Positions 4,194 to 11,876 of a DNA stretch of 35,003 nucleotides are shown in pieces (positions within the stretch are counted from its first letter, which is position 1; every line of letters begins with the position of its first letter). A model generated the notes under the pieces. It did no database searches. It was not told the DNA's origin and saw only the letters and a list, made by a program, of their open reading frames with translations. The stretch is from Candidatus Doudnabacteria bacterium. GTDB lineage: Bacteria > Patescibacteriota > Doudnabacteria > UBA920 > O2-02-FULL-48-8. The DNA is taken from the NCBI GenBank assembly GCA_019659055.1, contig JAIFWV010000006.1:1-35003 (forward strand), written 5' to 3'. Position numbers and translations under genes: made by a program.

Positions 4194-5135
4194 CTACTTT
4201 CTGATTATGTTTCTTAATTTGCGAGCGTTTGTGTATACATTATACCAGAGTGGAGAAAAAATCATTTCAAAACTGCCCGGATAGACCAGTTCGAATCCGC
4301 CAAAAGATTTCTTGAACCGCGAAATCCCGCTCCAGGCATGTTCAGGATTGGCGTCATTCGGCGCGATCCCGCCCAAATCATAATATTTGTACCCCATTTT
4401 CTTGGCGAGCTTCATGGCTTCCCAATGCAAGAGATAAGGCGCCATCACATCCTTCATTGCCTGTGACGATCCTCCGTGTAGATAGGTCGCAGTTGTGCCA
4501 AACATGGTCAGAAACATGGTCGCCAAAGGTTTGCCTGCGTATTCGGCAATTAAAATTCTTAAATTATCACGGCTTAAATTTTCGCGCATCTGCACATAAT
4601 AATTCTGAGGATGCAGACGAAAATTATTGCGGCCAGCTGTCTCAAGCAAAAGTTTGTAAACATCAATTAGGTCGCCCGCCCCGCCCTCACCGATGACCAC
4701 TCCCTTGCGGCTTGCCAAATTTATGTTGTACCGCGTCTTGGGTTTCATGGATGTTAGAATTTCGGGTTCTGAGGGCTCCAAATCCACCAGCCAATTATGT
4801 GTCGGCTGAGTTTCTTTGGCGGCTTTTGGTAAATTTACTGCAACCGAAGGCTCGATGCGCGCAAAAACGACGTCGCGATCTTTAGTCGCGAGCGCTTTCA
4901 AATCGGCCATGGCGAGATCAAGATTCCCCAACGGCCCGCGCGGAACATAAAGATATTTTTTGGAACTAATCAACGGAGTTTCTAGAACTTGCGCCGCAAA
5001 TTCTGAGTCCATAAGTCTGTGAACTTTGAGTCCGTGGGCATTTTGGAATTCACCCCAGTCCCATGACTGCAAAATCGAGCCATTGAGCTCGATAACTTTC
5101 TTATCCCATTCTTGTTTGGAAAAATTTGAAAGCAT
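4194..5135 (-). CDS. FemAB/FemX-family aminoacyltransferase (peptidoglycan interpeptide bridge or GNAT-like)
   Basis: 313 aa; ILQSWDWGEFQNAHG, KPKTRYNINLASRKGV, GKPLATMFLTMFGTTATYLHGGSSQAMKDVMAPYLLHWEAMKLAKKMGYKYYDLGGI. Confidence 0.85.
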   Translation of the reverse strand: MLSNFSKQEWDKKVIELNGSILQSWDWGEFQNAHGLKVHRLMDSEFAAQVLETPLISSKKYLYVPRGPLGNLDLAMADLKALATKDRDVVFARIEPSVAVNLPKAAKETQPTHNWLVDLEPSEPEILTSMKPKTRYNINLASRKGVVIGEGGAGDLIDVYKLLLETAGRNNFRLHPQNYYVQMRENLSRDNLRILIAEYAGKPLATMFLTMFGTTATYLHGGSSQAMKDVMAPYLLHWEAMKLAKKMGYKYYDLGGIAPNDANPEHAWSGISRFKKSFGGFELVYPGSFEMIFSPLWYNVYTNARKLRNIIRK

Positions 5136-5153
5136 AAATTAAGATTAAAATAT

Positions 5154-5190
5154 CTCGTAGCGTGCTCGTAGCGTGCCGATTTATCGGCTC
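5154..5190. repeat. REP-like element (left) with tandem CTCGTAGCGTG x2
   Basis: CTCGTAGCGTG at 5154-5164 and 5165-5175, then GTAGCGTGCCGATTTATCGGCTC (5168-5190) with GCCGAT/ATCGGC stem; overlaps the RAYT stop codon. Confidence 0.7.
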
Positions 5191-5600
5191 AAGGGGTTTA
5201 GCTTCAAGGTTTCGGCTAATGGATTATTTATTATATATTCACGTATCGTGTTTAAGGCTTTTTCGTTTCGGATTATATGCTCAAAATAATTTGCCTGCCA
5301 CAATTCGCCACCGATTTTCCGCGTTACTTTTGCTTTCAATCGCCGTACAATCTCACCCAGTCCTAATTCGCTTTTTTCTAATATAAAAATTAGGTGTAAA
5401 TGGTTCGGCATTATGACTTTATAATCCAGAGTTAGGCCGACTGTTTTATTAATTAAATCCGAAAGCTCATTCTCTACTATATTTTCTTTACCAGCCAGTA
5501 AATTTGCCCTGCCCTTAGTAATAATTGTTACAAAGTAATAACCGTCGGCTTTATAGTCGAACCCTCTCAATCTAATTGATTTTCTAAAATTCTGCTTCAT
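5181..5600 (-). mobile_element. REP-associated tyrosine transposase (RAYT, Y1/IS200-like HUH family)
   Basis: 139 aa; VTIITKGR, VIMPNHLHLIFIL (HUH), C-terminal IREYIINNPLAETL with candidate catalytic Tyr. Confidence 0.92.
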
Positions 5601-5614
5601 TCTCGTGTTTGCTC

Positions 5615-5637
5615 GAGCCCATGAATGGGCGCGCTAC
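5615..5637. repeat. REP-like element (right), inverted relative to left copy
   Basis: GAGCCCATGAATGGGCGCGCTAC; 19/23 identical to the reverse complement of 5168-5190. Confidence 0.7.
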
Positions 5638-5640
5638 ATT

Positions 5641-5668
5641 GTCACTGTTTTCTGATTACTGCTTACTT
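5641..5668. repeat. degenerate 7-bp periodic tract
   Basis: GTCACTG|TTTTCTG|ATTACTG|CTTACTT. Confidence 0.5.
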
Positions 5669-6226
5669 TTGTAGTGCCTTCAGGGCCAGCTTGATCTTGT
5701 CTTGAATTGTTTTACCCTCAGGGACATCCTTGAGCGCCTCGCGGGCCTGCTGTTCCTTGTAACCCAAAGACATGAGGGCCTCAAGGGCATCGGAATGCTC
5801 CGAGGCCATAGGTGTGCCTGCGCCCTGACTCTTGAGCTTCTCTCGCAATTCGACAATCACTCGCTCGGCCGTCTTTTTGCCAATGCCCGAGACTTTGGTA
5901 AACACCGCCACGTCGCCCGAAGCAATGGCCGATTTGATCATCTCAAGGCTTGAGATGGACATGATCCCGAGCGCAGACTTTGGTCCGACGCCTGAGACTG
6001 TGAGAAGCTGTTCAAAAAATTCCAATTCGGCCAGAGTTGCGAAACCATAAAGGCTTATCTGATCCTCGCGGACATAGGTCAGGATCACGAAACTGGCCTC
6101 ATCTCCAACTTTGGATTCGAAATGCTGGGGCGGAGTAACAAAAACCTTATAGCCGACGCCATTGGCCTCGACTATAAGAAACCCTGTCCCTTTGTGCTGA
6201 ATTTTCCCTGTGATTGAACCGATCAT
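5663..6226 (-). CDS. ruvA: Holliday junction branch migration protein RuvA
   Basis: MIGSITGKIQHKGTGFLIVEANGVGYKVFV...YGFATLAELEFFEQLLTVSGVGPKSALGIMS...VSGIGKKTAERVIVELREKL. Confidence 0.97.
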   Translation of the reverse strand: MIGSITGKIQHKGTGFLIVEANGVGYKVFVTPPQHFESKVGDEASFVILTYVREDQISLYGFATLAELEFFEQLLTVSGVGPKSALGIMSISSLEMIKSAIASGDVAVFTKVSGIGKKTAERVIVELREKLKSQGAGTPMASEHSDALEALMSLGYKEQQAREALKDVPEGKTIQDKIKLALKALQK

Positions 6227-8879: not shown

Positions 8880-11876
8880 TTACCAAGTCTTAAACCAATT
8901 GGCATTGAGAATCGAGAAGTCTATGGCGTTAACTATACCGTCATCATTGAGATCAGACGCGGCATCATTGGTAAACCATTTACTATTGAGTATCGAGTAG
9001 TCAACCGAATTAACTATATGGTCGGAATTGATATCTCCGACAACTGGGGTCCCTTGAGTTGTGGCAGACACGGAGGATGACGGGGATGAAACATTGCCTG
9101 CCGCATCAACTGCGGCCACGGTGTAAGAATAAAGCGTAGAGGCAGTCAGACCGGTGTCGGAATAAGAAGTCGTGGTCGGCGCAGCAATTTGGATTCCACC
9201 GCGATAGACTCGATACCCGGTCACGCCAACATTGTCAGTGGAAGTACTCCAAGACAGGTTAATCTGGGACGCAGAAATTACTGATGCGGCCAGTCCAGCA
9301 GGAACCGAAGGAGGCGTCGTATCCTGTGAAGAGCCAAGACTCACTCCATTCAAATAATTCTCCAGGTTCGTGTAGCCATTGGCCGCGGTCAGGGGGCCAT
9401 CCGCGGCATTGTTGGAATTTAGACTATTAACCGCTTCCCAGGAATCGGGCATACCGTCATGATCGGTATCGGTACAGGCCGTGCCTGTGGCCAGTGTCGG
9501 CCAACCGCCAAGATTAGCCTGACTTACCGGCGAATTCGAAATAGAGCTGTAATCGTAGGACCCAAAAAGTGTCGTGCCATTGGCCACTGCATTAGCTATC
9601 CGACTGTCTACAGAATCCCGGGCGTCGACCCAATTCCCCGAGCAATCAAGTCGGCGCGAGGCCCCTGCCCCATTATAAGGAGCCGTTCTGGTTGTCCCCA
9701 AAATTGATCCGTTAGCTTGAGAAATATTCGAAACCGGTTCGGCTGTTATCGGAATATATCCGGCAGGTGTGGGAATAGGTGAACCGCGCTGGTAAGTTGT
9801 TGAAAGCGGGCTCGAAGCTTCGCTGCCGCTCTGATTGACCGAAAGGCCAGTCATGCTCCAGTTGTTTGTACCCGCAGGATCACTCGGGCCGGCATTGCCG
9901 GAAAGGTAAAAGGACGGAGCAAAGGTGGTGTCGTTGCCGTCATTGGTGGTCCAAGCTTGGATTTCGTGTGAGACAAAGCTTTGCCCTGAACGGTATTTGA
10001 AGTAATTGCCGATGAAATCACGCCACCCCTTGCTCCGCATGGGGTAAAAAGTCCAGCTATAGACAATGTTATTGACTAGTCGTCCCGATTTCACCGTCAT
10101 AAGCGGCAGTCGATGGCTTGAGCCCATAAAAAGATTGTGATGAAGGTCAATATCCGTTTCCAGATCTAAATAGGCATTACCCAAGCCAGAGTATCCGCCA
10201 ACGACCGCGGCCGTAGTTTGCCCGGCGCCTCCGAATTCCTCGCCAATGAACGAATTAGACACGGTAATTGAACGTGGGACAGTCCCGGCACTGGGGTGGC
10301 CGACAATACCGAGCGCATCATAGTTAGACCACTCCACGGAATCGTGATCAAAGACAATGTTATAGGCATTATCTGAGGCTTGGTTGGCAAGGATTTCGAG
10401 GCTCATGCCGCAGCTCCATGGATTTTGATTACAAATCTCGCCGGCATTGTGACCGCGCCGGACACGAAGGTAACGAATCACGACATTGTGAGTTTTGACC
10501 ACCAGCGAAGGGTTGCCAGCGGCTTGCGCACCGCTTGGGCCAGTCAGTTGAATACCGCCGCCCGGAGCCGTCTGTCCGGCAATTGTAATGTAGGGATTAT
10601 AGATAGTAAGAGAACTTAATAGAGAAATCGTGCCACCTGTACGGAATACGCAGGTGCGCGGCCCTGAAGCATCAATACAGGCGCGGAGTGATCCTGCACC
10701 AGAATCGTTGACATTTGTCACCTCCCAGACCGTACCCCCGCGGCCACCGACACTATTTGCGCCGCCGCCTTCCGCTCCAGGGAAAGCCACAACGGTACCG
10801 GATGGAGGTGGAGGTGGTGGGGTTGGGGAAGGGTTCGGATTGGAAGTCGAGGCCGACACTGCAGGATCGGTCCATGCTGACTCGTTGCCTGTATTATCAT
10901 AAGCTGAAATCCGGTAATAATAAGTCGTGCCTGATGTCAGACCGGTATGTGAATAATTGTTATTGGTTGTCGTAGTGAGGATCGGGTAACAAGCGGCTGT
11001 TTGAGTCGAGGGGGTGCACCCACCTGCACCGCTGTAAAGATAAAGATGGTATCCTGCCAAACCAGTGCCGCCAACATTATCAGTTGATGCATTCCACGAA
11101 AGATTGATCTGTGAGGTGGATATGGTGTTGGCACTAAATCCGGCGGGAACCGATGGAGGCGTGGTGTCTATTGATGTTACCGTGAATGCCACCCCCACGA
11201 TGCCCAATGCGTTGCTTGCGCTCCAGTTGAATGTCGGAGTGTAGGATCCGGCAGCAGCATTCAATAGGTATTCACTGCCGCTGTACCAAGCAGCGCCGGT
11301 GGCATTATCCTGATACGTAAACCCCCCTCCGGCAGTCGGGAAACCCGGAAGACCGCTTGAGGCGCTGACCGCGAACATTGCATCAGTGGCCGTGGTATTG
11401 AGAGAGCACGTACTCTGATTACTGCTGGCGCTTAAATTGGCACAGGAAACATCAAGCCCTGAAGTTCCAGAGATCTCGAGTCCCCAGGCATCAATGGGCG
11501 GTGTTCCCGAGGCGGGAGTGATTGTAACAGTGGTCACACCGGCAGTCGTATTAGTAACGTGATAAGCGCGGATCTTGGAATTAGTATTCCAAACCTGGCT
11601 CGTCACCAGATTCCATGTTTGACTCATATTATCGGTGACGGTGACGTTTACCGTCGAGGCCCCGACCGAGGCAAAGACCAACAGTTCATTCCCGGCAGTG
11701 GTCGAGGTAAAAGTCAGCACAGTTGTGCCATTTGCGCCGTTCCTGGGATGCTGGACTATAACAGCGGCGGCTTTGGTAGTCTGCAAACGAACTGGCCAAT
11801 TACCAAAAACAATTATTGTCAGAAAAACTATCAGCACCACTCCTGCTAATTTCGAGAGTTTTTGTTTCAAGGACAT
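8880..11876 (-). CDS. secreted multidomain pectate-lyase-like protein with FN3 domains and C-terminal dockerin-like repeat
   Basis: N-terminal hydrophobic signal; two FN3 modules (DTTPPSVPAG...QINLSW.ASTDNV); PSPTPPPPPP linker; VVAFPGAEGGGANSVGGRGGTVWEVTNVNDSGAGSLRACI...ITIAGQTAPGGGIQL typical of PL1-like beta-helix; C-term GDINSDHIVNSVDYSILNSKW...DLNDDGIVNAIDFSILNANW. Confidence 0.85.
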   Translation of the reverse strand: MSLKQKLSKLAGVVLIVFLTIIVFGNWPVRLQTTKAAAVIVQHPRNGANGTTVLTFTSTTAGNELLVFASVGASTVNVTVTDNMSQTWNLVTSQVWNTNSKIRAYHVTNTTAGVTTVTITPASGTPPIDAWGLEISGTSGLDVSCANLSASSNQSTCSLNTTATDAMFAVSASSGLPGFPTAGGGFTYQDNATGAAWYSGSEYLLNAAAGSYTPTFNWSASNALGIVGVAFTVTSIDTTPPSVPAGFSANTISTSQINLSWNASTDNVGGTGLAGYHLYLYSGAGGCTPSTQTAACYPILTTTTNNNYSHTGLTSGTTYYYRISAYDNTGNESAWTDPAVSASTSNPNPSPTPPPPPPSGTVVAFPGAEGGGANSVGGRGGTVWEVTNVNDSGAGSLRACIDASGPRTCVFRTGGTISLLSSLTIYNPYITIAGQTAPGGGIQLTGPSGAQAAGNPSLVVKTHNVVIRYLRVRRGHNAGEICNQNPWSCGMSLEILANQASDNAYNIVFDHDSVEWSNYDALGIVGHPSAGTVPRSITVSNSFIGEEFGGAGQTTAAVVGGYSGLGNAYLDLETDIDLHHNLFMGSSHRLPLMTVKSGRLVNNIVYSWTFYPMRSKGWRDFIGNYFKYRSGQSFVSHEIQAWTTNDGNDTTFAPSFYLSGNAGPSDPAGTNNWSMTGLSVNQSGSEASSPLSTTYQRGSPIPTPAGYIPITAEPVSNISQANGSILGTTRTAPYNGAGASRRLDCSGNWVDARDSVDSRIANAVANGTTLFGSYDYSSISNSPVSQANLGGWPTLATGTACTDTDHDGMPDSWEAVNSLNSNNAADGPLTAANGYTNLENYLNGVSLGSSQDTTPPSVPAGLAASVISASQINLSWSTSTDNVGVTGYRVYRGGIQIAAPTTTSYSDTGLTASTLYSYTVAAVDAAGNVSSPSSSVSATTQGTPVVGDINSDHIVNSVDYSILNSKWFTNDAASDLNDDGIVNAIDFSILNANWFKTW

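Follow-up and report, generated by a model that had tools for sequence, protein, structure and literature searches.

A probable single-copy GTAG REPtron between ruvA and a FemAB-family gene in Candidatus Doudnabacteria

REPtrons are a known kind of system, and we found no report of one from CPR bacteria in the literature searched. The survey of the GTAG REP superfamily by di Nocera et al. (PMC3733652) recorded GTAG repeats in Proteobacteria, Cyanobacteria, Chloroflexi, and PVC, with no CPR named. TnpA-REP proteins bind the folded single-strand REP, with GTAG serving as a guide, and cut between C and T or between C and A (PMC8266576). Here we analyzed a window of 35,003 nucleotides from a Candidatus Doudnabacteria genome (contig JAIFWV010000006.1), in which a first-pass annotation had noted a RAYT (REP-associated tyrosine transposase) between inverted REP-like hairpins.

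The unit in this window shares with REPtron Mb of Marinomonas sp. MWYL1 (group 3 TnpA-REP; PMC8266576) the placement of the RAYT between inverted REPs and a small, perfect 5-bp stem with GTAG a few bases upstream. The 4-nt loop of REPtron Mb requires T, T, and A, with the third position free (SELEX; PMC8266576), and is matched by the conserved TTNA here; the loop bases kept by evolution are thus those essential in vitro in a REPtron from a distant proteobacterium, linking comparative with biochemical evidence. The stem position that defines the REP types here is the fourth, and in REPtron Mb the fourth position affected cleavage whereas the second and third did not (PMC8266576). The two systems differ in phylum and in the GTAG-to-stem spacer (2 nt in REPtron Mb, 3 nt here), and the protein motifs here appear closer to subclass 2.4 than to subclass 2.5 of PMC6006769.

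The E. coli REPtron (TnpA-REP, 4er8) provided the best sequence and fold match to the RAYT. BIMEs of E. coli mix two REP types (y with z1 or z2; PMC8266576), as the dimers described below mix C and G types, but REPs in E. coli form long hairpins with bulges, whereas those here are short, perfect palindromes. Additional traits shared with the GTAG REP superfamily are the GTAG tail, short stem, TY-type loop, head-head dimers, heterodimers, and REPtrons, as well as the occurrence of copies within genes for ligase, excinuclease, and tRNA synthetase (PMC3733652).

We consider it very probable that the window unit is a single-copy GTAG REPtron of Ca. Doudnabacteria, with a RAYT that acts on its own flanking REPs, and that it has moved and seeded REPs in this lineage. 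Because cognate REPs are dispersed only in relatives, the window copy is referred to as a REPtron-type unit. It would extend the REP/RAYT system to a deep-branching candidate phylum with reduced genomes, in which every additional repeat carries a cost.

The RAYT gene and its flanking hairpins

Table 1. Features of the REPtron-type unit and its flanks (window positions; CM, covariance model)
Feature	Coordinates	Strand	Details
FemAB-family gene (downstream flank)	4194..5135	-	PF02388 E 1.1e-39
Insert extent, entire ruvA-FemAB spacer	5136..5662	.	0-12 bp or gene overlap in six RAYT-less relatives
11-bp tandem CTCGTAGCGTG x2	5154..5175	+	copies 5154-5164, 5165-5175
3' (left) REP, G type, GTAGCGTGCCGATTTATCGGCTC	5168..5190	+	GTAG-CGT-GCCGA-TTTA-TCGGC-TC; CM E 1.1e-7
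RAYT gene (HUH Y1 type)	5181..5600	-	139 aa + TAA stop
TAA stop of RAYT	5181-5183	-	in loop of left hairpin
5' (right) REP, C type, GTAGCGCGCCCATTCATGGGCTC	5615..5637	-	GTAG-CGC-GCCCA-TTCA-TGGGC-TC; CM E 2.3e-6
ruvA (upstream flank)	5663..6226	-	TIGR00084, 189.7 bits

The RAYT protein matched PF01797 above the cut-off (E 5.9e-8), and its best NCBIfam match was the RAYT model NF047646 (E 1.1e-20, 74 bits), a near miss of the curated cut-off of 80 bits, which is a model threshold and not a biological definition. By sequence, the best PDB match was E. coli TnpA-REP, 4er8 (E 3.7e-7), and the same entry was the top fold match of an AF2-predicted structure (pLDDT 86; TM 0.75 over the query, rmsd 2.1), with the ISDra2 and IS608 transposases as the next structural matches. 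H67 and H69 of the HUH motif (H67-x-H69) and Y122 were invariant across 35 homologs. On motif comparison, NHLH, WQ, and YIINNP would fit subclass 2.4 except for one residue (NH[IFV]H, WQ, YIxNNP; compare DH[LF]H, WQ, YI[VI]ANP in subclass 2.5; PMC6006769), whereas the REP is short like those of group 3.

IS200/IS605 elements (IS608, ISDra2) share the HUH Y1 fold and hairpin ends with this unit, which could accordingly be taken for an ordinary insertion sequence of that family. However, the IS200 model NF033573 scored 22.3 against a cut-off of 55, the nearest protein of solved structure, in both sequence and fold, is the TnpA-REP 4er8, and the GTAG-tagged ends were also found as free dimers. 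Moreover, the RAYT is single copy, being the only PF01797 match and the sole Y1 transposase found in its own 97%-complete genome. Model scores, copy number, and closest fold led us to reject a plain IS200 element, and an IS200/IS605 insertion sequence with hairpin ends is extremely improbable.

The first-pass annotation had described two inverted GTAG hairpins that are 19/23 identical, with two of the four differences at paired positions. This description was correct: the differences lie at positions 7, 11, 15, and 18, of which 11 and 18 form a base pair, G-C in one flanking REP being swapped for C-G in the other. The RAYT stop codon, likewise noted at the outset within the left hairpin, is the complement of three of its four loop bases. 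The 11-bp tandem that the annotation had pointed out is present and, lying outside the 3' REP, represents an additional REP head in truncated form; the relative G042 has a truncated head beside its 5' REP (L162).

When folded as DNA, each flanking REP formed the short hairpin (-5.0 and -4.5 kcal/mol). CT is located at the 3' foot of both hairpins (GGCTC), and CTC precedes GTAG in the left REP. Two GTAG-N3-6bp hairpins forming one matching inverted pair were found in the window, as compared with a mean of 0.01 hairpins and 0/200 pairs in 200 dinucleotide shuffles. The REP motif had exactly two matches in the 0.9-Mb genome, and a reversed control pattern had zero. Chance hairpins were ruled out by the shuffles and the reversed-pattern controls. 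Hairpins of this size are able to act in RNA, and REPs are often transcribed (PMC3733652), so that the two could be merely transcription terminators or mRNA-stabilizing structures that flank the gene by chance. This is hardly credible given that no T run follows them and that the same 21-mers occur inside coding frames and inverted around the RAYT at four sites.

Elsewhere in the window, positions 8880-11876 encode a 998-aa secreted-type protein with fibronectin type III and dockerin type I domains, unusual for a CPR genome.

Chromosomal sites of the RAYT and its hairpins

Outside its own genome, the nearest homolog of the RAYT came from a Candidatus Doudnabacteria bin (L008 in G040; 60% identity), followed by WOR-3/Stahlbacteria homologs (47-48%), which are accompanied by GTAG hairpins with other stems. 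RAYT orthologs within the order shared 55-60% identity. Any RAYT homolog was found in 10 of the 50 genomes of the class; in the window's family, one of 14 genomes carried it, namely, the window's own, and it was absent from the 13 relatives.

Orthologous RAYTs within the order were located at purC/purB in another family (unit in G040 and G042, remnant in G032), at tatD/leuS (G037, G043), and adjacent to carB at a contig edge (G031), the flanking genes having been named by inspection of translated flanks. GTAG hairpins stood beside the orthologous RAYTs at all of these sites, which with ruvA/FemAB make four chromosomal sites. The annotation's expectation of conserved hairpins next to orthologous RAYTs, and of more REP copies, was borne out in the relatives. 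In G040 and G042, the 5' REP of the RAYT is C type and the 3' REP is G type, in position and type as in the window. Both REPs of the G037 RAYT are G type, and their heads differ. The G032 RAYT (L268, purC-purB) has lost its HUH half through an internal deletion and has a REP dimer on each side; it is possibly a step from a REPtron to a non-autonomous element.

Clean, empty purC-purB junctions were present in G036, G038, and G041, which belong to the same genus as G040 and G042. ruvA was located in 13 genomes of the window's family and adjoined FemAB in 12 of them, the contig of the remaining one ending too early, and in six family relatives the junction lacks a RAYT and is as short as listed in Table 1. 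The comparison of syntenic junctions lacking the element, proposed in the first-pass annotation, thus upheld its reading of a REPtron inserted between ruvA and FemAB in a CPR genome. Together, the several sites and the empty junctions indicate that the unit has been gained, lost, or moved repeatedly. Unrelated inserts were also seen between ruvA and FemAB in relatives (L128, L129, L132, and L135), with lengths of ~110, 105, 380, and 430 bp; the 105-bp insert has inverted repeats and the 430-bp insert a short frame. The junction looks like a preferred insertion place.

The same distribution bears on whether the RAYT has been domesticated for a host function (e.g., processing hairpins at replication forks) and binds at the flanking REPs. 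A single, intact copy would fit such a role, as would the described closeness of RAYTs to housekeeping genes (PMC8266576) and the retention of the RAYT at purC/purB in two species with purB proteins 71% identical. Nonetheless, domestication is unlikely in view of the patchy occurrence across the class, the several sites, and the one decayed copy.

In G040, the TAG of a REP's GTAG is the stop codon of purB (L144:2941). Such provision of gene stop codons has been reported for other GTAG REPs (PMC3733652).

REPs in the window's genome and in relatives

Searching the genome and its relatives with a covariance model, as the first-pass annotation had proposed, recovered REP copies in relatives but none dispersed in the window's own genome, where the next hit after the two flanking REPs (E 1.2) was at chance level. 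With only these two REPs in its genome, this copy shows no sign of having acted there, and activity in that genome consequently rests on the intact active site and the relatives. The earlier description of the unit as functional or recently functional is consistent with that active site and with the REPs of relatives, but draws no support from the window's own genome.

We assign roughly even chances to the REPtron being a recent arrival or inactive, i.e., having entered whole (horizontally or from another site) with REPs that have not spread or can no longer spread. REPs concentrated beside the gene have been read as a sign of recent arrival (PMC8266576), and the presence of only two REPs, the absence of the unit from the 13 family relatives, and the G032 remnant, which indicates that such units decay, all agree with this. 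The RAYT gene also has a low G+C content (36% versus 48% for the window; 1.3rd percentile); however, its orthologs are low in G+C as well (L008, 32% versus 44%), so low G+C may be a trait of the RAYT gene itself. Furthermore, both the reading frame and the active site have stayed intact, and REPs of the window's family have the same TC tail, with a TCGA center in dimers and a third stem (GCTGAT/ATCAGC). The TCGAGC continuation of the window's 5' REP is also that of the family REPs, which suggests long residence in the family.

Seven genomes of the family (G004, G006, G011, G012, G010, G005, and G001) each carried several REPs (CM E < 0.01) without an orthologous RAYT. Other Y1 transposases in the family comprised seven genes in six relatives, of a different, longer type (L238-L244). 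Five of the seven (L239, L240, L241, L242, and L244) were bounded on either side by short palindromes of a non-GTAG kind (GTGGAGGACGGACCTCCACAT, for example, in the case of L239) and resemble the TIRtrons of PMC3733652; palindromes were not obvious at the ends of the remaining two. These genes were rejected as serving the family REPs because their ends were non-GTAG or had no obvious palindromes, and no cognate RAYT was found. A RAYT without dispersed repeats here and repeats without an orthologous RAYT in relatives imply that gene and repeats are mostly separate within the family. Either the gene is gained and lost more rapidly than the repeats, or a RAYT acts on them in trans. Across the order, there are genomes with the gene and many repeats, with the gene and no dispersed repeats, and with repeats and no orthologous gene, making the role of the RAYT in producing or maintaining REPs open to comparison.

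The exact REP pattern (GTAGCGNGCCNATNNATNGGC) was detected in 15 of the 50 genomes of the class, including 35 copies in G040 and 28 in G042, and the reversed pattern in none. Even sampling of the phylum gave the pattern in 11 of the 36 genomes belonging to the order and in 0 of 346 others. A single-REP match in trmD, which may be native coding sequence and not an insertion, was left out of the counts. REPs of G040 and G042 were mostly arranged as head-head dimers with 10-18 bp between them, and 23 of 24 such dimers paired one C-type with one G-type stem, although the 24 may share descent and are not 24 independent events. Single REPs numbered 40 G versus 29 C. REP dimers in alternating orientation, a BIME-type feature, were present in these two genomes and absent from the window's. 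The compensatory stem change seen by the first-pass annotation is therefore a true paired swap, but it is not private to the locus: GCCGAT/ATCGGC (G) and GCCCAT/ATGGGC (C) are two standing REP types across the order.

REP stems covaried at two pairs (column 11-18: GC 22, CG 15, AU 1), with a score of 0.216 versus 0.065 when shuffled, in an alignment picked by a hairpin filter that favors the structure. The GTAG head and the loop T-T-N-A were invariant (columns 13 T, 14 T, and 16 A, with column 15 variable) in a set for which GTAG and the stem, but not the loop as a whole, had been among the selection criteria. Across the flanks of 105 REPs, no CT site stood at a constant place on both sides, and only T at -1 stood out (89/105).

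Proposed mechanism and REPs inside genes

In the proposed mechanism, the RAYT, as an HUH single-strand endonuclease, would recognize both flanking REPs as folded single-stranded hairpins through the GTAG guide, the 5-bp stem, and the TTNA loop, and would cut the DNA near the REP through Tyr122 and then rejoin it. By analogy with other TnpA-REP proteins, the cut would fall next to the hairpin, between C and T or between C and A, and would link protein and DNA through a 5' phosphotyrosine. Within this lineage, the RAYT would have carried the entire unit from one chromosomal site to another and given rise to solo REPs and REP dimers (BIMEs) at other places. The two flanking REPs would represent the two standing stem types, C at the 5' end and G at the 3' end, that also make up the dispersed dimers. 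The starting points are the observed gene, active-site residues, fold, hairpins, cross-genome conservation, four sites, empty sites, and dispersed dimers in relatives; from these we infer, by analogy, single-strand recognition, cleavage, and mobilization by this RAYT and any present activity.

In relatives, many REPs or REP dimers were found in frame within conserved genes, i.e., leuS (two dimers), purD, mnmA, purH, a pfkB-type kinase gene, uvrC, ligA, cysS, dinB, and a glycosyltransferase gene. These loci were identified in G040 (L139, L143, L150, L151, and L154) and in family relatives (L205, L206, L210, L217, L219, L224, L225, L227, and L232), and the encoded peptides include RSVPIYGRPKDADKSARY, EPINRHAT, and VVSRFIG. 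Intragenic GTAG REPs in such genes are already known (PMC3733652). In-frame REPs in essential genes provide a route by which a mobile hairpin may alter proteins.

The ligA REP lies at the same codon in G004, G005, and G006 (L210, L219, and L225), and the glycosyltransferase REP at the same codon in G004, G006, and G007 (L206, L217, and L227). At both sites, the REP head is GTAGCC in G004 and GTAGTCA in G005, G006, or G007. A third gene, with the REP near its end (L209 and L218; G004 and G006), has the same pattern within one codon, the head in L218 being GTAGTTA or GTAGTCA. These genome-specific heads, seen at a few orthologous sites (three), raise the tentative and rather doubtful idea that REPs are rewritten in place and not only inserted, GTAGCC and GTAGT (TCA/TTA) heads replacing one another with the peptide changing in step. 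If so, a RAYT or a conversion process would keep the REPs of a genome alike in sequence, and the two-type (C+G) rule would be actively maintained.

The leuS BIMEs lie in loops of variable length across genomes, in which the exact ends of the insertions are unreadable. In LeuS of several members of the class, a large insertion in the editing domain (L252, L253, L257, and L259) appeared NUDIX-like by eye in G037, G044, and G030 and was different in G023.
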